From positions 248,001 through 312,000 of the forward strand of contig NZ_JBBYXJ010000002.1 of the NCBI RefSeq assembly GCF_039655775.1: 64,000 nucleotides of DNA, in the 5' to 3' direction. The notes under the pieces are model-generated. The model saw only the letters and a program-made list of their open reading frames with translations. It did no database searches and was not told where the DNA came from. Every line of letters begins with the position of its first letter. Within the stretch, counting starts at the first letter, position 1. This DNA is from Iodidimonas sp. SYSU 1G8 (GTDB lineage Bacteria > Pseudomonadota > Alphaproteobacteria > SMXS01). Of the stretch, positions 46,701 through 56,780 are shown one piece after another. The position numbers were made by a program, and so were the translations under genes.

Positions 46701-46893
46701 GGCATTCTCCTGGTCGTCTCCCGTATGTACTTCACTGCGGCCATGCCGCCAAGGGCGGCCTGTGCGCTGATGGCTGCACATTTCCCAGGCGGATGCGCGC
46801 AGGTGCTCAAAAATTGCACAGCCATGCCCATGGATTGTCCGCCGCGCCGCGCCTGACGTCTCTGGATCAGCGATTCCCGCCCAAATCCGACGC

Positions 46894-46909
46894 TGGCACG
46901 GGAGTTGCT
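46894..46909 (+). promoter_or_regulatory. Sigma-54 (RpoN) promoter of the guanidine operon
   Basis: TGGCACGGGAGTTGCT matches the sigma-54 consensus TGGCACG-N4-TTGCW at every fixed position: -24 element at 46894-46900, -12 element at 46905-46909. Transcription would start near 46920, a few bases before the riboswitch. Two TGCAC motifs (46775-46779, 46815-46819) lie upstream and could be partial activator sites, but no full NtrC palindrome is visible. Confidence 0.82.
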
Positions 46910-46923
46910 AGGTAGAGGCTATA

Positions 46924-47034
46924 GGGTGGCTAGGGTTCCGGTGCGGTCAGGCCGCGCGACTGGTCCGAGAGCCGCCGCCCGGTCGGTGAACAGCGGCCGG
47001 GTACACGGCGGGACAAAAGCCCGGGAGGTCATCG
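46924..47034 (+). promoter_or_regulatory. Guanidine-I riboswitch (ykkC class)
   Basis: Three blocks diagnostic of the guanidine-I aptamer appear in order: CTAGGGTTCCG (46930-46940), ACTGGTCCGAGAG (46959-46971) and ACACGGCGGGACAAAAGC continuing to CCCGGGAGG (47003-47028). A closing P1 helix can form between 46925-46930 and 47028-47033 (four standard pairs, two wobbles). The class binds guanidinium and normally turns expression on. It sits directly upstream of a guanidine import and degradation operon, as expected. Confidence 0.95.
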
Positions 47035-47042
47035 TGATGCAA

Positions 47043-47108
47043 GGGATTGGCATCATACACTCGGCCTCGCCAATCCCCCAGACCAGCAGCCGTATTGTGG
47101 AGGATTGG
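47043..47108 (+). promoter_or_regulatory. Putative translational expression platform of the riboswitch
   Basis: CCAATCCCCC (47070-47079) can pair with GGGATTGG (47043-47050, 8 of 8) or with GGAGGATTGG (47099-47108, 9 of 10). The second partner contains the Shine-Dalgarno GGAGG (47099-47103) of the first gene. The two pairings are mutually exclusive, so this looks like an anti-sequestor/sequestor switch controlling translation. No T tract follows, so termination is unlikely. How ligand binding is linked to the choice is not evident. Confidence 0.6.
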
Positions 47109-47112
47109 AACT

Positions 47113-48186
47113 ATGCAGAAGAAATCCAGGTTCGTCGCCGCGCTCGCCATCGCCGCCATGACCCTCACCGCGTTCGCCGCCCCGGCCAGCGCGGAGAAGA
47201 AAACCGAATTCAAGCTGGCGTGGTCCATCTATGTGGGCTGGATGCCCTGGGGCTGGGCCGCCGACAATGGGATCGTGAAGAAGTGGGCGGACAAGTACGG
47301 CATCACCATCGACGTGGTGCAGTTCAACGACTACGTCGAGTCCATCAACCAGTACACCGCCGGCGCCTATGACGGCGTGACGGCGACCAACATGGACACG
47401 CTGGCCATTCCGTCGGTCGGCGGCGTCGATACGACGGCGCTGATCGTCGGCGACTTCTCCAACGGCAACGACGCCATCATCCTCAAGGGCAAGACCAAGC
47501 TGGCCGACATCGTTGGTCAGAAGGTCAACCTGGTGGAGCTTTCCGTGTCGCATTACCTGCTGGCGCGCGCGCTGGAGAGCATCGGCAAGTCGGAGAAGGA
47601 CGTCACCGTCGTCAACACCTCGGATGCCGACATGGTCGCCGCGTGGAACACCAAGGACGTGACGTCGGTCGTGACCTGGAACCCGCTGGTCGCGGAGATC
47701 GCCGCCCTTCCAGGCGCCAACAAGGTCTTCGATTCCAGCAAGATCCCCGGGGAGATCATCGACCTTACCGTGGTCAATACCCAGACCCTGAAAGACAATC
47801 CCAATCTCGGCCGGGCGCTGACCGGCGCCTGGTACGAAACCATGGCGATCATGAGCTCCAATACGCCCGAGGGCAAAGCCGCCCGCGAGGCCATGGGCAA
47901 GGCGTCCGGCACGGATCTGGCGGGCTACGACATGCAGCTCGCCTCGACCAAGATGTTCTACATGCCGGCGCAGGGCGTCGAATTCGCCATGGGCGCGAGC
48001 CTGCCCAAGACCATGGATTCGGTGCGCAACTTCCTGTTCGCTCACGGCTTGCTCGGTCAGGGCGCGCCGAGCGCCGACGTGGTCGGCATCTCCTTCCCCG
48101 ACGGCAAGGTGCTGGGCGACGCGGGCAACGTGAAGCTGCGCTTTACTGCCGCCTACATGAACGAAGCAGCCAAGGCGGCGAAGTAA
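47113..48186 (+). CDS. NitT/TauT-type ABC substrate-binding protein, guanidine operon
   Basis: A 357-residue periplasmic binding protein with a signal peptide (core FVAALAIAAMTLTAFAAPASA, cleavage near residue 27). The mature part resembles SsuA/TauA-like proteins, with LAWSIYVGWMPWGWA near its start. Such proteins next to ykkC riboswitches and urea-carboxylase-type genes are thought to bind guanidine or a relative. The aromatic cluster WSIYVGWMPWGW could form a cation-binding pocket, which is inference. ATG 47113 has GGAGG 9 bases upstream, within the switchable leader helix. Confidence 0.9.
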   Translation: MQKKSRFVAALAIAAMTLTAFAAPASAEKKTEFKLAWSIYVGWMPWGWAADNGIVKKWADKYGITIDVVQFNDYVESINQYTAGAYDGVTATNMDTLAIPSVGGVDTTALIVGDFSNGNDAIILKGKTKLADIVGQKVNLVELSVSHYLLARALESIGKSEKDVTVVNTSDADMVAAWNTKDVTSVVTWNPLVAEIAALPGANKVFDSSKIPGEIIDLTVVNTQTLKDNPNLGRALTGAWYETMAIMSSNTPEGKAAREAMGKASGTDLAGYDMQLASTKMFYMPAQGVEFAMGASLPKTMDSVRNFLFAHGLLGQGAPSADVVGISFPDGKVLGDAGNVKLRFTAAYMNEAAKAAK

Positions 48187-48220: not shown

Positions 48221-49048
48221 ATGCGCAGGCGTCTCATCAATGCCCATCCGACACGGGGTGTCGCGGTCTTCCTCGCCGCGCTCCCCTTCCTGCTCCTCCT
48301 CTTCGCCTATGTGGTGGGGTCGGAGGCGCGGCTGGCGGAAAACCCGAACGACAAGCTTTTGCCGTCGTTCTCCAGCATCGGCCAGGGTTTCGCGCGCATG
48401 GCGTTCGAGGCCGACGCCCGGACCGGAGACGTCCTGTTGTGGGTCGATACCGCCGCCAGCCTCGCCCGGCTGATGGCGGGCCTTGCCATCGCCACCCTGC
48501 TTGCCGGCACGCTGGGCGTCGCCATCGGCCTGCTGCCGTACATGCGGGCCTCGTTCAACTCCTTCGTCGCCGTTCTGGCCATGATCCCGCCGCTGGCCAT
48601 CCTGCCGATCCTGTTCATCATCTTCGGTCTGGGCGAAACCTCGAAGATCGCGCTGATCGTCATCGGTGTCGCCCCGGTGATCATGCGGGACATGATCCTG
48701 CGGGTCGAGGAACTGCCCCGCGAGCTGATGGTCAAGGCGCAGACCCTCGGCGCGTCCACCTGGCAGATCGCCCTGCGCGTGGTGGTGCCGCAGATGCTGC
48801 CGCGCCTCATCGATTCGGTCCGCCTGTCGCTTTGCTCGGCATGGCTGTTCCTGATCGCGGCGGAGGCGATCGCCTCCCAGTCGGGCCTTGGCTATCGCAT
48901 CTTCCTGCTGCGCCGGTACCTCGCCATGGACACCATCCTCCCCTATGTGGCGTGGATCACCCTGCTGGCCTTCCTGCTGGATTTTGGTCTGCGCAAGCTG
49001 CAGGACCGCGCCTTCCCCTGGTTCGCCGAAGGAAGGAAGCAGCGATGA
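48221..49048 (+). CDS. NitT/TauT-type ABC transporter permease, guanidine operon
   Basis: A 275-residue inner-membrane permease with about six helices. The EAA-like cytoplasmic loop is VKAQTLGASTWQIALRVVVPQMLPRLID (residues about 165-192). The protein is of the SsuC/TauC type. Its start is 34 bases after the binding-protein stop and its end overlaps the ATPase start by 4 bases. It forms the channel for the substrate delivered by the upstream binding protein, presumably guanidinium. Confidence 0.92.
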   Translation: MRRRLINAHPTRGVAVFLAALPFLLLLFAYVVGSEARLAENPNDKLLPSFSSIGQGFARMAFEADARTGDVLLWVDTAASLARLMAGLAIATLLAGTLGVAIGLLPYMRASFNSFVAVLAMIPPLAILPILFIIFGLGETSKIALIVIGVAPVIMRDMILRVEELPRELMVKAQTLGASTWQIALRVVVPQMLPRLIDSVRLSLCSAWLFLIAAEAIASQSGLGYRIFLLRRYLAMDTILPYVAWITLLAFLLDFGLRKLQDRAFPWFAEGRKQR

Positions 49049-49863
49049 CCGCCGTCAGCGTCAAGAACGTCTGGAAGGAATATGACGGGCGCATCGTGCT
49101 CGAGCATGTCTCGCTCGAGGTCGAGCCTCACTCCTTCGTCTCGCTGGTCGGCCCGTCCGGCTGTGGCAAGTCCACCTTCCTGCGCATGCTGCTCAGCGCC
49201 GAGACGCCGACGCGGGGCACCATTCTCGTCGATGGCGAGGCCCTGCCGGAAGAACCCACCGCCGATCGCGGCGTGGTGTTCCAGCGCTATTCGGTATTCC
49301 CGCACCTGACCGTGCTGGAAAACGTGGTCGTCGGCCTGGAATTCGCCGGCGCGCCACTGACCGGGCATTTTTTCGGCAAGGCCCGCCGCAAGGCGCGCGA
49401 GGATGCCGCCGAAATTCTCACCGCCGTGGGGCTGGGCGACTTTCTGTCGCTCTATCCGACCCAGCTTTCGGGCGGCATGCAGCAGCGCCTCGCCATCGCG
49501 CAGGCGCTGATCAAGCGGCCCAAGATCTTGTTGCTGGACGAGCCCTTCGGCGCCCTCGATCCGGGAATCCGCGCCGAGATTCACGTGCTCATGCTCAAGC
49601 TGTGGCGCGAAACCAAGATGACCGTCTTCATGGTCACCCACGACCTGTCCGAGGCCTTCCACCTCGGCACCCGTGTCATCGCCTTCGACCGGCCCCGCAA
49701 CCGGCCGGAGGAGCGTGACCGGTACGGCGCTACCATCACCCACGATCTGGCGGTCTGGCCGCCCAAGTATCCGGTTTCGGATACGGATATTGCCCCCGGC
49801 GGGACGGCCCGCCTGCTCGACGAGTTCGGGGCATTGCCGGGACGGCCCGGTGTCGGTCAGTAA
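49045..49863 (+). CDS. NitT/TauT-type ABC transporter ATPase, guanidine operon
   Basis: A 272-residue ABC ATPase. Walker A is GPSGCGKST, the Q-loop is VVFQRYSVFPHLTV, the signature is LSGGMQQRL, Walker B is ILLLDEPFGALD, and the H-loop His is in MVTHDLSEA. A C-terminal extension of about 50 residues follows, including DRYGATITHDLAVWPPKYP. This extension is unusual for SsuB-type ATPases and may be specific to guanidine/urea carboxylase loci. It completes the importer and precedes the deiminase genes by 12 bases. Confidence 0.93.
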   Translation: MTAVSVKNVWKEYDGRIVLEHVSLEVEPHSFVSLVGPSGCGKSTFLRMLLSAETPTRGTILVDGEALPEEPTADRGVVFQRYSVFPHLTVLENVVVGLEFAGAPLTGHFFGKARRKAREDAAEILTAVGLGDFLSLYPTQLSGGMQQRLAIAQALIKRPKILLLDEPFGALDPGIRAEIHVLMLKLWRETKMTVFMVTHDLSEAFHLGTRVIAFDRPRNRPEERDRYGATITHDLAVWPPKYPVSDTDIAPGGTARLLDEFGALPGRPGVGQ

Positions 49864-49875
49864 AGGAGACAACGC

Positions 49876-50700
49876 ATGACCGCGCTTGACCAAGCAACAC
49901 CCGAGGAAAACCGCGCCCGCTACGAGGCGCTGAAGGCCGGGGCCCACGAGAAGTCGCCGCGTCTGGCGCAGGCCGCGCAGGAGCCGTCGAACCCGGCGCG
50001 CATCAAGCCGAAGAAGGTGCTGCACCGCGAGCTGATCCCCGGCGGCTGGTATTGGAGCACCATCGTGCCGCGCGGCGAGACTCTTCGGATCGTCAATGGC
50101 GGCACCGGCAGCGTTTCCGCCCTGTTCTGGAACGCCGATGACACCAGCGAGCGGTATAATGCGGGCGACACTGTGAAGATTCAGTGGCACGCGCACCTTT
50201 CGAAGGGCCGGGTGCTGTTCTCCGACATGGGCCGGGTGCTCATGTCCATCACCGACGACACCTGCGGCCGGCACGATTTCATCGCCGGCGGATCGACGCC
50301 GTTCAGCAACCGGCGCCGCTATGGCGACGACAGCCTGCGCAACAGCCGCGACAATTTCCGGCTCGCCGCCGGCAAGTACGGCATGGGCGTCAAGGACGTC
50401 GCGCCCTGCATGACTTTCTTCGCGGGCGTCACCACCGGGGCGAACGGGCATTTCCAGTGGACCGGCGGCCACGACCGCGCCGGCGACTACGTGGATCTGC
50501 GGGCCGAGATGAACGTGCTCGCGGTGCTCTCCAACTGTCCTCATCCGCTCGATCCCGCGCCCCAATACGCGCCGAAATCCGTCGAGGCGATCCTTTGGCG
50601 CTCGCCCGAGCCGGACGAGGACGATCTGTGCCGGACGGCGACCGAGGAAGCGGTGCGCGGGTTCGAGAACACGGACCCGCTGTTCGGCGGCCGGGCTTAG
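49876..50700 (+). CDS. DUF1989 protein, carboxyguanidine deiminase subunit (CgdA/CgdB type)
   Basis: A 274-residue protein of the DUF1989 family, long annotated as urea carboxylase-associated. The family is now known to form, with its paralog, a carboxyguanidine deiminase that converts carboxyguanidine to allophanate and ammonia. Likely metal-binding residues lie in DDTCGRHDF and SNCPHPLD. It has a longer N-terminal part than the second copy. AGGAG precedes the ATG and the next start is 10 bases after its stop. Which subunit carries the active site is not visible. Confidence 0.88.
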   Translation: MTALDQATPEENRARYEALKAGAHEKSPRLAQAAQEPSNPARIKPKKVLHRELIPGGWYWSTIVPRGETLRIVNGGTGSVSALFWNADDTSERYNAGDTVKIQWHAHLSKGRVLFSDMGRVLMSITDDTCGRHDFIAGGSTPFSNRRRYGDDSLRNSRDNFRLAAGKYGMGVKDVAPCMTFFAGVTTGANGHFQWTGGHDRAGDYVDLRAEMNVLAVLSNCPHPLDPAPQYAPKSVEAILWRSPEPDEDDLCRTATEEAVRGFENTDPLFGGRA

Positions 50701-50710
50701 GAGACGGCCC

Positions 50711-51349
50711 ATGACCCTGTTCATCGATCGCGACTACGCCGCCGCCACCTATGATTTCACCATTCCCGCCCGCAAGCCGTGGTCCGGCCAGCTCCGCAAG
50801 GGCCAGGTGCTGCGGATCGTCGACCTGGAAGGCCAGCAGGCGGTGGATACGCTGCTGTACAATCTCTCCAACACCACCGAACGCTATAGCGCGCAGGACA
50901 CGCTGACGGCCCAGGGCGCGGCCTATATCGAGGCCGGCACGGCGCTGATGTCGAACGAAGGCAACGTGATGGCCACGGTGATCGCCGACACCTGCGGCCG
51001 GCACGATACCTCGGCCGGTGCCTGTTCTTGCGAGAGCAACACGGTGCGTTTCGGCCATCACACCCGCTACATGCACGCCTGCCGCGAGAACTTCCTGCTG
51101 GAAGTGTCGAAGTACGGCATGACCAAGCGCGACATCGTCGGCAACATCAACTTCTTCATGAACGTGCCGATCATGCCCGATGGCGAGGTGACCATCGACG
51201 ACGGCATCTCGGCGCCGCTGGGCTATGTGGATCTACGCGCCGACATGGACTTGCTGGTGGTGATCTCCAACTGCCCCCAGGTCAACAACCCGTGCAACGG
51301 GTTCAACCCCACGCCCGTCCGTGTCCTGGTCTGGGACTCGGCGGTCTGA
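50711..51349 (+). CDS. DUF1989 protein, second carboxyguanidine deiminase subunit (CgdA/CgdB type)
   Basis: A 212-residue paralog of the preceding gene. The cysteine- and histidine-rich segment ADTCGRHDTSAGACSCESN, followed by HHTRYMHACRENFL, and the later SNCPQVNNPCNGF are probable metal-binding sites and are richer in ligands than in the first copy, so this may be the catalytic subunit. It pairs with its neighbour to deiminate carboxyguanidine to allophanate. It is followed 14 bases later by the carboxylase gene, with GGGGAGA as ribosome-binding site. Confidence 0.88.
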   Translation: MTLFIDRDYAAATYDFTIPARKPWSGQLRKGQVLRIVDLEGQQAVDTLLYNLSNTTERYSAQDTLTAQGAAYIEAGTALMSNEGNVMATVIADTCGRHDTSAGACSCESNTVRFGHHTRYMHACRENFLLEVSKYGMTKRDIVGNINFFMNVPIMPDGEVTIDDGISAPLGYVDLRADMDLLVVISNCPQVNNPCNGFNPTPVRVLVWDSAV

Positions 51350-51363
51350 GGGGAGACATTATC

Positions 51364-54300
51364 ATGTTCGACAAGGTCCTGATCGCGAACCGGGGCGAAA
51401 TCGCCTGCCGGGTCATTTGCTCCCTGCGCCGCATGGGCATCGCCTCGGTCGCCGTCTATTCGGACGCCGACCGGCATGCCCGGCATGTCCTCATGGCCGA
51501 CGAGGCGGTGCGGGTCGGCCCGGCGCCCGCTGCGGAAAGCTACCTCAACCAGCAGGCCATCATCGACGCCTGCCTGTCCACCGGCGCCCAGGCGGTCCAT
51601 CCGGGCTATGGCTTCTTGTCCGAGAATCCGGCATTCGCCGAGAAGCTGGCCCTGCATGGCATCCGCTTCATCGGTCCCGGCGCCGAGCACATGCGCAGCT
51701 TCGGCCTCAAGCACACCGCCCGCGCTCTCGCCCAGAACAGCGGCGTGCCGCTGCTGCCCGGCACCGGCTTGCTGGCCGATGTGAACGAGGCGCTCGCGGC
51801 CGCTGCGACTATCGGTTATCCGGTGATGCTGAAAAGCACGGCGGGCGGCGGCGGCATCGGCATGGTGCTCTGCCACGAGGACACCGAACTGGCGACCCGC
51901 TACGAGGAGGTGAAGCGGCTCAGCCAGAACAATTTCGGCGATGCCGGCCTGTTCATCGAGAAATTCGTCAGCCGGGCCCGCCATATCGAGGTGCAGATCT
52001 TCGGCGATGGGCGCGGCCATGTGGTTGCCCTGGGCGAGCGCGACTGTTCCCTGCAGCGGCGCAACCAGAAGGTCGTCGAGGAAACCCCGGCGCCGCATCT
52101 GCCGGCGCAGGTCCGCCTCGATCTGCACGCCTCGGCCATCGCGCTCGGGCAGACGGTGAATTACGAATCCGCCGGCACGGTCGAGTTCGTCTACGACGTC
52201 GATGCCGACGCCTTCTACTTCCTCGAGGTGAACACCCGCCTGCAGGTCGAGCACTGCGTGACCGAGGAAGTGTTCGGCGTCGATCTGGTGGAATGGATGG
52301 TGCGCCAGGCCGCGGGCGAATACCCGGCGCTGGACATTCCGGCGGGCTACCCGAAAGGCGCGGCCATCGAGGTCCGTATCTATGCCGAGGACCCGGCCAA
52401 GGACTTCCGACCCAGCGCTGGCCGTCTGACCGCGGTAAAGTTTCCCTGCAATGCCCGCGTCGACGGATGGGTCGAGTCGGGGACAGAGGTGCCGCCCTAC
52501 TACGATCCCATGCTGGCCAAGCTGATCGTGTCGGGGCCGACCCGCGCCGCCGCCGTCGAGGCGCTCGCCGAGGCGCTCGACCGCTCCAGCCTCTACGGCA
52601 TCGAGACCAATCTGGCCTATCTGCGAGAGATCGCCCGCTCGCCCGTGTTCCGCGAGGGCAAGGCCATCACGGCGACGCTGAAAAGCTTCCCTTTCCAGTC
52701 CAGATCCATCGAGGTGCTCGCCCCCGGCGCCCAGTCCAGCATCCAGGACTGGCCGGGCCGGATCGGCTACTGGAACGTGGGCGTGCCGCCGAGCGGGCCC
52801 ATGGACGCGCTGTCCTTCCGCCTCGCGAACCGGCTGGTCGGCAATCCCGAAGGCGCGCCCGGGCTGGAAATCACCCTCACCGGCCCGACCCTGCGTTTCG
52901 GCTGCGACGCGGTCATCGCGCTGGGCGGGGCGAGGCTGAAGGCCACGCTGGACGGCGCCCCCGTCGCCTGGTGGCGCTCGCTGCCGGTGAAGGCCGGGCA
53001 GGTGCTGGCGCTGGGCGGCATCGAGGGCGCGGGCAACCGGGCCTATCTGGCGGTCGCCGGCGGGTTTGACGTGCCGGACTATCTGGGCTCGGGCGCGACC
53101 TTCGGCCTGGGCGGTTTCGGCGGCCATTCGACCGGGACGCTGAAGACCGGCGACGTGCTGCGGCTGAACGGCACGGACGCGCCGTACATCCCGCAGGTGC
53201 TCCGCGAGGACGCGCTGCCGCCGCTGACGCGCCAGTGGGAAATCGGCGTGCTCTACGGCCCGCACGGCGCGCCCGACTTCTTCACCGATGGCGACATCGA
53301 GACCTTCTTTTCCAGCGAGTACGAGGTCCATTTCAACAGCTCGCGCACCGGCGTGCGGCTGATCGGACCCCGGCCGCAATGGGCGCGGGCCGATGGCGGC
53401 GAAGCGGGTCTTCACCCGTCCAACATCCACGACAATGCCTATGCCATCGGCGCCATCGACTTCACGGGCGACATGCCGATCATCCTGGGTCCGGACGGGC
53501 CGAGCCTGGGCGGCTTCGTCTGCCCGGCGGTGATCGTCGATGCCGAATTGTGGAAGACGGGCCAGCTCAAGCCTGGCGACAAGGTCCGCTTCCGCCGCAT
53601 CGGGCTGGAAGAGGCGGCCTCCCTGCGCCGGGTGCAGGATGCCTCGGTGCTGAACCTCGACGCGCCGCGTCCGGTCGCCGCGCCGGTGCGCCACCAGCAC
53701 GACGCGGTCCTCGAGCGCCGCGAGGATCATGGGATTCCGGTCTGCTACCGGGTGGCCGGCGATTCCTACCTTCTGGTGGAATATGGTCCGCTGGTGCTGG
53801 ACATCACCCTGCGCATGCGCGTGCACAGCCTGATGCAGGCCATCGAGGCGCAGGACTGGCCGGGGATCATCGACCTGACGCCGGGAATCCGGTCGCTGCA
53901 GATCCACTATGACAGTCTCGCCTTGCCGCTCGCCCGGCTGCTCGACGGTCTCAAGGATCTGGAGCGCGGCCTGCCGGCGGTCGAGGACATGCGCGTGCCG
54001 TCGCGCATCGTCCATCTGCCGCTGTCGTGGAACGACGATCAGGCCCAGCTCGCGGCCCAAAAGTACATGGAACTGGTGCGTCCGGACGCGCCGTGGTGCC
54101 CGTCCAATATCGAGTTCATCCGCCGCATCAACGGCCTTGACAGCATCGACGATGTGTATCGGCTGTTCTTCGATGCCAGCTACATGGTGCTCGGGCTGGG
54201 CGACGTCTATCTCGGCGCGCCCGTCGCCACCCCGGTCGACCCCCGCCACCGGTTGGTCACCACCAAGTACAATCCGGCCCGCACCTGGACGCCCGAGAAC

Positions 54301-54951
54301 GCGGTGGGCATCGGCGGCGCCTATCTGTGCATCTACGGCATGGAAGGGCCGGGCGGTTACCAGCTCGTCGGCCGCACCATCCAGGTGTGGAACACCTGGC
54401 GCCAGCCGAAGCCGTTCGAGCCGAGAGTGCCGTGGCTGCTGCGCTTCTTCGACCAGATCCGCTTCTTCCCGGTCTCGGCCGAGGAATTGCTGGAGGCCCG
54501 CGCCGATTTCCCCCATGGCCGCTACAAGGTGGACATCGAGGAAACCAGCTTCAGCGTGCAGGAGTACAACCATTTCCTCGCGGCGAACGCCGAGGGCATC
54601 GGCGCCTTCAAGACCCGCCAGCAGACCGCCTTCGAGGCCGAGCGCCAGCGCTGGGCCGAACAGGGCCTCGCCACCTATGTGGGCGAGGAAACCGTCGCCG
54701 CGGTGATTGATGAAAGCGCGCTGCCGGACGGCTCGGTCGGCGTCGAATCCCACGTGCCGGGCAATGTCTGGAAGCTGATGGTCGAACCCGGCCAGAGCGT
54801 CGCCGCCGGCGACACCCTTGTCATCGTCGAATCCATGAAGATGGAGCTGTCCATCACCGCCCCCGTGGCCGGTGTGGTCAGTGAATATCGCTGCCAGCCC
54901 GGCAGGCCGGTCCAGGCCGGTCAGGTCGTGGCCGTACTGAAAGCCGCCTGA
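51364..54951 (+). CDS. Guanidine carboxylase (urea carboxylase family)
   Basis: A 1195-residue biotin enzyme. Domains in order are biotin carboxylase (1-450, with KSTAGGGGIGM ATP-grasp loop and FLEVNTRLQVEH), carboxyltransferase of the KipI/KipA-like type (about 460-1100, with HPSNIHDNAYAIGAIDFTGD), and a C-terminal biotinyl domain with Lys1159 in ESMKME. The family carboxylates urea or guanidine using ATP and bicarbonate. The guanidine-I riboswitch and the two deiminase genes show that guanidine is the substrate here. Annotation as plain urea carboxylase would be misleading. The stop overlaps the hydrolase start. Confidence 0.92.
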   Translation: MFDKVLIANRGEIACRVICSLRRMGIASVAVYSDADRHARHVLMADEAVRVGPAPAAESYLNQQAIIDACLSTGAQAVHPGYGFLSENPAFAEKLALHGIRFIGPGAEHMRSFGLKHTARALAQNSGVPLLPGTGLLADVNEALAAAATIGYPVMLKSTAGGGGIGMVLCHEDTELATRYEEVKRLSQNNFGDAGLFIEKFVSRARHIEVQIFGDGRGHVVALGERDCSLQRRNQKVVEETPAPHLPAQVRLDLHASAIALGQTVNYESAGTVEFVYDVDADAFYFLEVNTRLQVEHCVTEEVFGVDLVEWMVRQAAGEYPALDIPAGYPKGAAIEVRIYAEDPAKDFRPSAGRLTAVKFPCNARVDGWVESGTEVPPYYDPMLAKLIVSGPTRAAAVEALAEALDRSSLYGIETNLAYLREIARSPVFREGKAITATLKSFPFQSRSIEVLAPGAQSSIQDWPGRIGYWNVGVPPSGPMDALSFRLANRLVGNPEGAPGLEITLTGPTLRFGCDAVIALGGARLKATLDGAPVAWWRSLPVKAGQVLALGGIEGAGNRAYLAVAGGFDVPDYLGSGATFGLGGFGGHSTGTLKTGDVLRLNGTDAPYIPQVLREDALPPLTRQWEIGVLYGPHGAPDFFTDGDIETFFSSEYEVHFNSSRTGVRLIGPRPQWARADGGEAGLHPSNIHDNAYAIGAIDFTGDMPIILGPDGPSLGGFVCPAVIVDAELWKTGQLKPGDKVRFRRIGLEEAASLRRVQDASVLNLDAPRPVAAPVRHQHDAVLERREDHGIPVCYRVAGDSYLLVEYGPLVLDITLRMRVHSLMQAIEAQDWPGIIDLTPGIRSLQIHYDSLALPLARLLDGLKDLERGLPAVEDMRVPSRIVHLPLSWNDDQAQLAAQKYMELVRPDAPWCPSNIEFIRRINGLDSIDDVYRLFFDASYMVLGLGDVYLGAPVATPVDPRHRLVTTKYNPARTWTPENAVGIGGAYLCIYGMEGPGGYQLVGRTIQVWNTWRQPKPFEPRVPWLLRFFDQIRFFPVSAEELLEARADFPHGRYKVDIEETSFSVQEYNHFLAANAEGIGAFKTRQQTAFEAERQRWAEQGLATYVGEETVAAVIDESALPDGSVGVESHVPGNVWKLMVEPGQSVAAGDTLVIVESMKMELSITAPVAGVVSEYRCQPGRPVQAGQVVAVLKAA

Positions 54952-56780
54952 TGCCGATTTCGTCCCTGCAGATCGAAGACCTCCTCGCCGCCTACCGCGA
55001 AGCGCGGGCCACGCCCGAACAGGTAATCCACGCGGTTTATGACCGCATCGACGCCTGGCCCGACAAGGCCGTCTGGATCAGCCTGTTCCCGCGCGAGGAG
55101 GCGCTGGCACGGGCGCGGGCGCTGGCGGAACGGCCCGAGGGCATCGACGGCCTGCCGCTCTACGGCATTCCCTTCGCGGTGAAGGACAATATAGATTGCG
55201 CCGGACTGCCGACCACGGCGGCCTGCCCCGACTACGCCTACCAGCCCTGGGAGAACGCGACGGCCGTCCAGCGTCTGCTCGATGCCGGCGCGATCGCCAT
55301 CGGCAAGACGAACCTGGATCAGTTCGCCACCGGCCTCAACGGCACGCGCTCGCCCTATGGCGCGCCGCGCTGTGTCTTCGACGGCGAGTATATCTCGGGC
55401 GGCTCCAGTTCGGGATCGGCGGTGGCCGTCGCCGCCGGGCTGGTGTCCTTCGCCCTGGGCACGGACACGGCAGGATCGGGACGGGTCCCGGCCGCGCTGA
55501 ACAACATCGTCGGCGTCAAGCCGACCAAGGGCCTGCTGAGCACGGCGGGCGTGGTGCCGGCCTGCCGCTCGCTCGACTGCGTCACCGTCTTCGCCCTGAA
55601 TGTGGGCGACGGCAACCGGGTGCGCCGCATCTCGCAGGCCAATGATGGCGACGATCCCTACGGCCGGACCTTGACGCCCCGGCCGCTCCCCCTGCGCGGC
55701 TTCCGCTTCGGCGTGCTGGCGGGAGAGGACCGCAAGTTCTGCGGCGACCGGGATGCCGCGGGACTCTATGACCGGGCCTGCGAACGGCTGGCCAGCCTCG
55801 GCGGGCAGGCGGTCGAGATCGACTATCAGCCCTTCGCGGCGGCGGCGGCGCTGCTCTATGACGGCCCGTGGGTGGCCGAACGGCTGGCGGCGATCCAGAC
55901 CTTCTTCAACACCAGTCCCGGCGCCATCAACCCGGTGGTGCGCCAGATCATCCAGGGCGGCCGGCGCTTCACCTCGGTCGATGCGTTCGAGGGCCAGTAC
56001 CGGCTGAAGGCGCTGGAGCGCGTCGCCGCGCGGGAGTGGGAAAAAATCGACTTCATGTTGCTGCCGACCTGCCCCACCACCTACACGGTGGCCGAGATGG
56101 AGGCCAATCCCATCGAGTACAACGCCAATCTGGGCCTCTACACCAACTTCGTGAACCTGCTGGACTGCTGCGGCGTCGCCGTGCCCGCCGGCCGTCGCCG
56201 CGACGGCCTGCCGCTCGGCGTCACCCTGATCGGCCCGGCCTTCACCGACGATGCGCTCGCCGTGCTGGCCGACCGGCTGCACCGGGCGCTGGTGGAAACC
56301 GCCGGCGCGACAGGACAGGGGCTGTCGGCCCGGTCGCTGGTGCCCGAGCCGGCGCCCGCCGCCTATGTGGATCTGGCCGTGGTCGGCGCGCATCTGCGCG
56401 GCATGCCGCTGCATCACCAGCTGACCGAACTGGACGCCCTGTTCGTGCGCGCCTGCCGCACCGCCGCGCCGTACCGCCTCTACGCCCTGCCCAACACCGA
56501 ACCGGCCAAGCCCGGCCTGATCCGCGAGCCGGGATATGCCGGCAAGGGCGTCGAGGTGGAAGTGTGGCGGCTGACCGAGGCGGCCTTCGGCCGCTTCGTC
56601 GGCCGCATCCCGGGCCCGCTCGGCATCGGCACTGTCGAGCTCGAGGACGGCTCCAGCGTGAAAAGCTTCCTGTGCGAGGAATGGGCCGTACGCGGCGCCG
56701 AGGACATCACCGGGTTTGGTGGCTGGAAGGCGTATTGCACCGCGTTGACCATCAAGGCGGGGGCTGCGTCGGCGGGTTGA
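54951..56780 (+). CDS. atzF: Allophanate hydrolase
   Basis: A 609-residue amidase-signature enzyme that splits allophanate to CO2 and two ammonia. The Ser-cisSer-Lys core is present as AVKDNIDCAG (catalytic Lys) and GGSSSGSAVAVAAG, then GTDTAGSGRVPAALN with the nucleophilic Ser. The C-terminal domain (about 490-605, LYALPNTEPAKPGLIREPGYAG) is the second domain found in AtzF-type allophanate hydrolases. It overlaps the carboxylase stop by one base and is the final gene of the guanidine operon, completing release of nitrogen as ammonium. Confidence 0.94.
   Translation: MPISSLQIEDLLAAYREARATPEQVIHAVYDRIDAWPDKAVWISLFPREEALARARALAERPEGIDGLPLYGIPFAVKDNIDCAGLPTTAACPDYAYQPWENATAVQRLLDAGAIAIGKTNLDQFATGLNGTRSPYGAPRCVFDGEYISGGSSSGSAVAVAAGLVSFALGTDTAGSGRVPAALNNIVGVKPTKGLLSTAGVVPACRSLDCVTVFALNVGDGNRVRRISQANDGDDPYGRTLTPRPLPLRGFRFGVLAGEDRKFCGDRDAAGLYDRACERLASLGGQAVEIDYQPFAAAAALLYDGPWVAERLAAIQTFFNTSPGAINPVVRQIIQGGRRFTSVDAFEGQYRLKALERVAAREWEKIDFMLLPTCPTTYTVAEMEANPIEYNANLGLYTNFVNLLDCCGVAVPAGRRRDGLPLGVTLIGPAFTDDALAVLADRLHRALVETAGATGQGLSARSLVPEPAPAAYVDLAVVGAHLRGMPLHHQLTELDALFVRACRTAAPYRLYALPNTEPAKPGLIREPGYAGKGVEVEVWRLTEAAFGRFVGRIPGPLGIGTVELEDGSSVKSFLCEEWAVRGAEDITGFGGWKAYCTALTIKAGAASAG

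Follow-up and report, generated by a model that had tools for sequence, protein, structure and literature searches.

The window (the whole 64,000-nucleotide stretch of DNA that was analysed) contains an operon for guanidine import and assimilation that appears to be controlled at two successive levels, namely, NtrC-activated sigma-54 transcription followed by gating through guanidine riboswitches. We assign this reading a probability of roughly 0.87. In the proposed mechanism, phosphorylated NtrC, bound upstream, would activate the sigma-54 promoter of the operon; the operon RNA would be made when nitrogen is short, and the transcript would begin at the first helix of a Guanidine-I aptamer. 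The Guanidine-I switch at this 5' end would permit translation of the importer only in the presence of guanidine, and a Guanidine-II switch inside the operon would guard the catabolic genes. The net logic would be nitrogen limitation AND guanidine, a gate that we infer with good support from the observations described below.

The operon lies on the forward strand and starts with the genes of an ABC importer, which consists of a substrate-binding protein (47113-48186; TIGR03427, 544.7 bits, cut-off 333.9), a permease (48221-49048), matched by taurine/nitrate-type permease models below the equivalog cut-off, and an ATPase (49045-49863), delimited by its open reading frame and start. The importer genes are followed by those for UAAP1 (49876-50700; TIGR03425, 285 bits) and UAAP2 (50711-51349; TIGR03424, 330 bits), which are subunits of the carboxyguanidine deiminase that acts in the guanidine carboxylase pathway, as attributed to Schneider 2020 in PMC12186494. 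The next gene encodes a urea/guanidine carboxylase (51364-54951), an open reading frame with the biotin-carboxylase start MFDKVLIANRGEIACRV, the R. etli CFN42 counterpart of which, in the corresponding position, is annotated as uca, and the last one an allophanate hydrolase (54951-56780; TIGR02713, 809 bits). The NCBIfam matches and the gene order, with the importer, UAAP1/2, carboxylase and allophanate hydrolase all present, are those of a guanidine carboxylase operon. TIGR03427 is annotated as 'putative urea', and guanidine is assigned to the binding protein by context; likewise, the riboswitch and UAAP context points to guanidine as the probable substrate of the carboxylase.

The Guanidine-I (ykkC subtype 1) aptamer occupies positions 46919-47029 of the + strand (Rfam RF00442, 98.2 bits, gathering score 63, E 1e-16) and shows covariation in relatives. 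Three elements between the aptamer and the start codon are conserved in the genus, namely, GGGATTGGC, GCCAATCC and GGATTGG, which overlaps the Shine-Dalgarno sequence. The same strand at 47034-47108 is predicted to form a probable translational expression platform, in which GGGATTGGC (47043-47051) and the Shine-Dalgarno sequence GGAGGATTGG (47099-47108) compete for GCCAATCCC (47069-47077). The minimum free energy fold (-86.3 kcal/mol) pairs GCCAATCC with the GGATTGG element and hides the Shine-Dalgarno sequence, which is free in an alternative fold of -80.5 kcal/mol. The modelled folding fits translational control by the Guanidine-I switch. Guanidine-I switches are known to be ON switches, and by analogy, guanidine would favour the open form.

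A second riboswitch, Guanidine-II (mini-ykkC; 49796-49850, + strand; RF01068, 34.9 bits, cut-off 32), is located inside the ATPase gene, at its 3' end, immediately ahead of UAAP1 and between the importer and the catabolic genes. The coding sequence and the aptamer share bases because the aptamer is inside the 3' part of the ATPase coding region. Of 13 related loci, 10 have Guanidine-II at the equivalent place (37-43 bits); the same overlap with the ATPase gene was also observed in several Rhizobium-type plasmids. As a separate observation, three gammaproteobacterial cases (G431, G450 and G705) contain two Guanidine-I aptamers head to head on opposite strands, about 300-500 bp apart, an arrangement that suggests divergent guanidine operons.

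The putative promoter, TGGCACGGGAGTTGCT (46894-46909, + strand; -24/-12 elements TGGCACG-GGAG-TTGCT), is preceded by a C. The earlier note had claimed a perfect sigma-54 consensus at this position, with a predicted start at about 46920, just before the aptamer helix P1, and both points held on closer analysis. The element has 12 of the 12 fixed bases of the consensus TGGCACG-N4-TTGCW, with GG at -24 and GC at -12; setting the C of the -12 GC (46907-46908) as -12 places the predicted +1 at 46920. This is the 5' edge of the aptamer, the first paired base of P1 being at about 46925, so that the RNA would start at the Guanidine-I aptamer. The element is the sole perfect consensus match in the window, and the 3.9-Mb genome contains 3 such matches. 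Motif counts were tried as evidence for the promoter and dropped: matches with at most 2 mismatches number 10 in the window versus 12.5 expected, and a pattern search of the 3.9-Mb genome with at most 1 mismatch yielded 22 matches versus 37 for a reversed control pattern. Because near-matches do not exceed the control, with no enrichment in the window or the genome, counts alone were rejected as evidence. Taken alone, the motif is weak evidence; judging from sequence comparison, its placement and conservation clearly exceed chance. It is kept in all genus relatives, and its flanks diverge. The reading of 46894-46909 as a sigma-54 promoter is supported by these comparisons.

The broader survey of conservation covered genus relatives, named plasmids, 80 genome contigs on which a relative of the binding protein is encoded, and two samples (385 and 369 genomes) in which the RNA alone was the search target. 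Near-identical upstream regions were removed before counting, and a match required at least 10 of the 12 motif bases. The scan of regions upstream of ykkC riboswitches that the earlier note had proposed gave a positive outcome: the motif is present within 160 nt in 81 of 99 distinct upstream regions of Guanidine-I aptamers, mostly from Alpha- and Gammaproteobacteria, versus 0 of 97 control windows located 740-900 nt upstream. By set, it was detected in 8/8 upstream regions of the own family, 16/19 of the alphaproteobacterial sample, 14/19 of the gammaproteobacterial sample and 6/7 of the plasmids. In the first set, with the distance restricted to 80 nt, the motif is found in 58 of 73 distinct upstream regions; among the controls, it was absent from all 292 windows taken further upstream and from all 73 reverse complements, and it occurred in about 0.5% of shuffled sequences. 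It was detected at 0 of 30 alphaproteobacterial cobalamin riboswitches and is therefore not a general riboswitch habit. In the promoter logo, GG, C, TT and G of the -24/-12 elements are invariant or nearly so, with about zero information in the flanks. In 60 of the 81 cases, nearly all of them alphaproteobacterial, a distance of 19-25 nt separates the motif end from the downstream CTAGGG core; gammaproteobacterial leaders are mostly longer (43-85 nt). An apparent absence of the motif in Oceanospirillales was due in part to the window size: in a wider window, several members have it, at some 70-85 nt upstream of the core.

Candidate enhancers upstream of the promoter belong to the TGC-N11-GCA class, which has been characterized as the NtrC site by EMSA and footprinting in S. 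meliloti (PMC10746234). With a matrix trained without the window's own family, on other families only, the box TGCTCAAAAATTGCACA (46804-46820), which begins 90 bp ahead of the -24 element, ranks first among the 64,000 window positions (13.1 bits); it is asymmetric, with an imperfect right half that reads TGCACA, not TGRGCA. A probable second, weaker box, TGCACATTTCCCAGGCG (46775-46791, at -119; 9.1 bits), has stronger counterparts in three genus relatives, likewise at -119 (13.2-15.4 bits), and a possible third weak box, TGCCCATGGATTGTCCG (46825-46841, at -69; 8.5 bits), is conserved in four (8.5-10.8 bits). A de novo palindrome search of 61 upstream regions recovered the 17-bp motif TGCCCAAA.TTTGGGCA (TGCCcAaa.ttTgGGCA), with a log-likelihood of 227 (regions further upstream, 90; shuffles, 31). 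Under five-fold cross-validation, a site scoring 11 bits or more was recovered in 37 of the 61 held-out alphaproteobacterial promoters, versus 1 of 60 controls. The box positions repeat at 10.75-11 bp, as expected for putative enhancer sites facing one side of the helix (held-out nR2 about 17, the nominal P being too optimistic given the relatedness of the sequences). The enterobacterial NtrC consensus showed no enrichment in alphaproteobacterial upstream regions; in Gammaproteobacteria, this enterobacterial form (TGCACY-N5-RGTGCA) is matched at 10 or more of 12 bases in 16 of 28 promoters versus 0 of 28 controls. At sigma-54 promoters of the own genome, the held-out matrix scores 15.2 bits for glnB, 14.7 for glnK-amtB and 14.4 for the second amtB. 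Two other sigma-54 motifs of the own genome with strong NtrC-type boxes, L017 (C2:372100; 16.5 bits) and L004 (C2:1022266; 14.7 bits), are located upstream of genes for secreted, porin-like proteins, which are further candidates for the NtrC regulon.

The genome encodes a sigma-54 system, with a single rpoN copy and GAFTGA-bearing EBPs, that is, NtrC (identified at 699 bits) and the LuxO-like regulator L115; both NtrBC and NtrYX are encoded. Another EBP (L115, NtrX L116 or FlbD L117) could in principle activate a genuine sigma-54 promoter here, and the first input would then not be nitrogen. The genome has four full-length EBP genes, and the GAFTGA motif of L115 is compatible with such a role, but the box belongs to the NtrC class, the promoters of glnB, glnK and amtB are recovered with the same matrix, NtrX lacks GAFTGA, FlbD has GAFEGA, and no EBP gene was found near the operon, within the 64-kb window. 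Moreover, the orthologous Burkholderia operon is silenced in an ntrC mutant: by RNA-seq, the urea carboxylase transcript of B. cenocepacia H111 changes by log2 -6.0, and the transcripts for the ABC periplasmic protein and the UAAPs are undetected (PMC5491218). A survey of sigma-54 regulons also predicts that UAAP genes (COG3665) are sigma-54-regulated (PMC12316311). The link to the B. cenocepacia data runs through the DNA of Caballeronia, also of the Burkholderiaceae, the operon of which has a 10/12 sigma-54 motif, a modest enhancer match and both Guanidine-I and Guanidine-II. We consider activation by a different EBP improbable. The input from RpoN and an NtrC-like activator, as claimed in the earlier note, is backed by the conservation, the phased NtrC-type boxes, the same boxes at glnB, glnK and amtB of the own genome, and the Burkholderia RNA-seq data.

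Under the same criteria, 18 of the 99 Guanidine-I upstream regions are without the motif, which is thus not obligatory. It is missing in Roseospira, Rhodospira, Xanthobacter NM-59, S. fredii and Thioclava, most of which keep a strong NtrC-type box; boxes of 13.6-17 bits without the sigma-54 motif were detected at L040, L049, L050, L241 and L244. Such sequences suggest that NtrC acts at another promoter type, and because the strong box is kept, nitrogen control appears to persist in Thioclava, Roseospira, Xanthobacter NM-59 and S. fredii. NtrC of Rhodobacterales is without GAFTGA and works with sigma-70 (PMC10274813). The order includes Tabrizicola and Thioclava, which both have TTGACG upstream in their leaders (two cases), and the ELFG...GAFTGA segment was not found in Tabrizicola NtrC; Roseospira, S. 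fredii and Thioclava keep the box and would have lost the sigma-54 motif, which in the Rhodobacterales fits an NtrC without GAFTGA. Loss of GAFTGA as the general cause of the missing motif was rejected and fits Tabrizicola only: 20 of the NtrC homologues analysed keep GAFTGA or GSFTGA, including those from the Roseospira-type, Xanthobacter NM-59 and f42 genomes that lack the sigma-54 motif, and retention in most of the other motif-lacking genomes argues against a general explanation.

These departures bear on the alternative that the promoter is a constitutive sigma-70-type one, with the riboswitch as the sole control and the sigma-54 motif marginal or vestigial. The loci without the motif in Thioclava (L241), Tabrizicola (L059), Roseospira (L040 and L049) and S. 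fredii (L244), and TTGACG upstream in two motif-lacking relatives, would be in line with it. We nevertheless regard this alternative as very unlikely, given that the motif is kept in the window and in all genus relatives amid diverging surroundings, and that Thioclava, Roseospira, Xanthobacter NM-59 and S. fredii retain the strong NtrC-type box. The notion that GC-rich intergenic DNA matches the motif here by chance can draw on the unremarkable frequency of matches with one or two mismatches but is already contradicted by the sequence comparison, at a controlled distance and against cobalamin riboswitches, and has next to no probability.

Three loci from one alphaproteobacterial family (L031, L127 and L133) have neither the sigma-54 motif nor the NtrC box upstream of the aptamer; instead, TTGCTGTAATTGTATACAG or a close variant lies directly before the aptamer (upstream of position 1501), in place of the sigma-54 motif. 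By its sequence, the TTGCTGTAATTGTATACAG-type element is a possible binding site of another regulator. In the Kaistia and Bosea loci (L037, L038 and L045), a similar ATTGCATACAG or ATTGTATAC accompanies the sigma-54 motif.

No guanidine riboswitch was found with Rfam in the Asticcacaulis (L242) and Novosphingobium (L246) loci. Each of these has a gene of the CopG family (ribbon-helix-helix) in or beside the operon (L242, 1682-2191; L246, 5139-5663). The examined plasmid loci of Sphingomonadales and Caulobacterales have a CopG-type protein gene instead of a riboswitch, and this protein possibly replaces the RNA sensor. Distant homologues of the binding protein were also observed without a guanidine riboswitch on an IncA plasmid from Citrobacter (L248, 1278-2758) and a Vibrio penaeicida plasmid (L249); next to one of the two are a gene of the isochorismatase family and an operon for mercury resistance. 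The ligand of these homologues may differ. On balance, we favour the view that the NtrC box, the sigma-54 promoter and the Guanidine-I aptamer constitute an old, widely kept proteobacterial module for guanidine assimilation, the parts of which have been exchanged independently.

Studies of guanidine riboswitches have so far dealt chiefly with the RNA itself and with the enzymes. If NtrC-activated transcription with riboswitch gating is the true mode of control, guanidine would be a scavenged nitrogen source, not merely a toxin, for most Alphaproteobacteria and many Gammaproteobacteria, and cells fed with ammonium would leave the operon unexpressed even when guanidine is present. This would matter for the fate of guanidine in water and soil rich in ammonium, and for riboswitch tests performed in rich medium. 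The two-lock arrangement, which recurs across many Proteobacteria, would be a clean natural case of a global signal at the promoter level and a specific signal at the RNA level that meet at one 5' end.

The earlier note knew of no description of this pairing, which stands to the extent that no paper found joins the two parts; the NtrC dependence and the sigma-54 prediction had already been published, under the name of urea carboxylase. A literature search on guanidine riboswitches together with sigma54, RpoN or NtrC, with subscription papers, including Sinn 2021, outside its scope, did not find the pairing, and the terms RpoN and NtrC are absent from the 2025 review and other guanidine-riboswitch papers. 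Priority is, accordingly, not certain. The B. cenocepacia NtrC regulon and the sigma-54 survey deal with the same operon family, NtrC-dependent in the former and with sigma-54-regulated UAAP genes in the latter (PMC5491218, PMC12316311). The former paper names the operon for urea carboxylase, with guanidine and riboswitch absent from the text; the latter also treats the family as urea carboxylase, and a riboswitch appears only in the title of a reference. Conversely, the guanidine carboxylase operons of Raoultella, Klebsiella, Erwinia and Vreelandella share with the one described here the aptamer, importer, deiminase, carboxylase and allophanate hydrolase, as well as the internal Guanidine-II, and the review and the Vreelandella paper that describe them mention neither RpoN nor NtrC and do not consider promoter input (PMC12186494, PMC12508155).

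Among the operons controlled by NtrC and sigma-54, glnK-amtB, glnA and urease/urt have the same -24/-12 promoter and NtrC-type boxes on one face of the DNA, and they too consist of nitrogen-acquisition genes. Unlike in those operons, the transcript here would start directly with a metabolite-sensing aptamer, that is, a substrate-specific RNA checkpoint. Tandem riboswitch gates, such as the PRPP/guanine one (PMC5912903), likewise combine two inputs at one leader; unlike in that tandem, one of the inputs here would be a protein-DNA decision at the promoter and the other an RNA switch. The parts are of known kinds, and the new point is their joined, widely kept arrangement.
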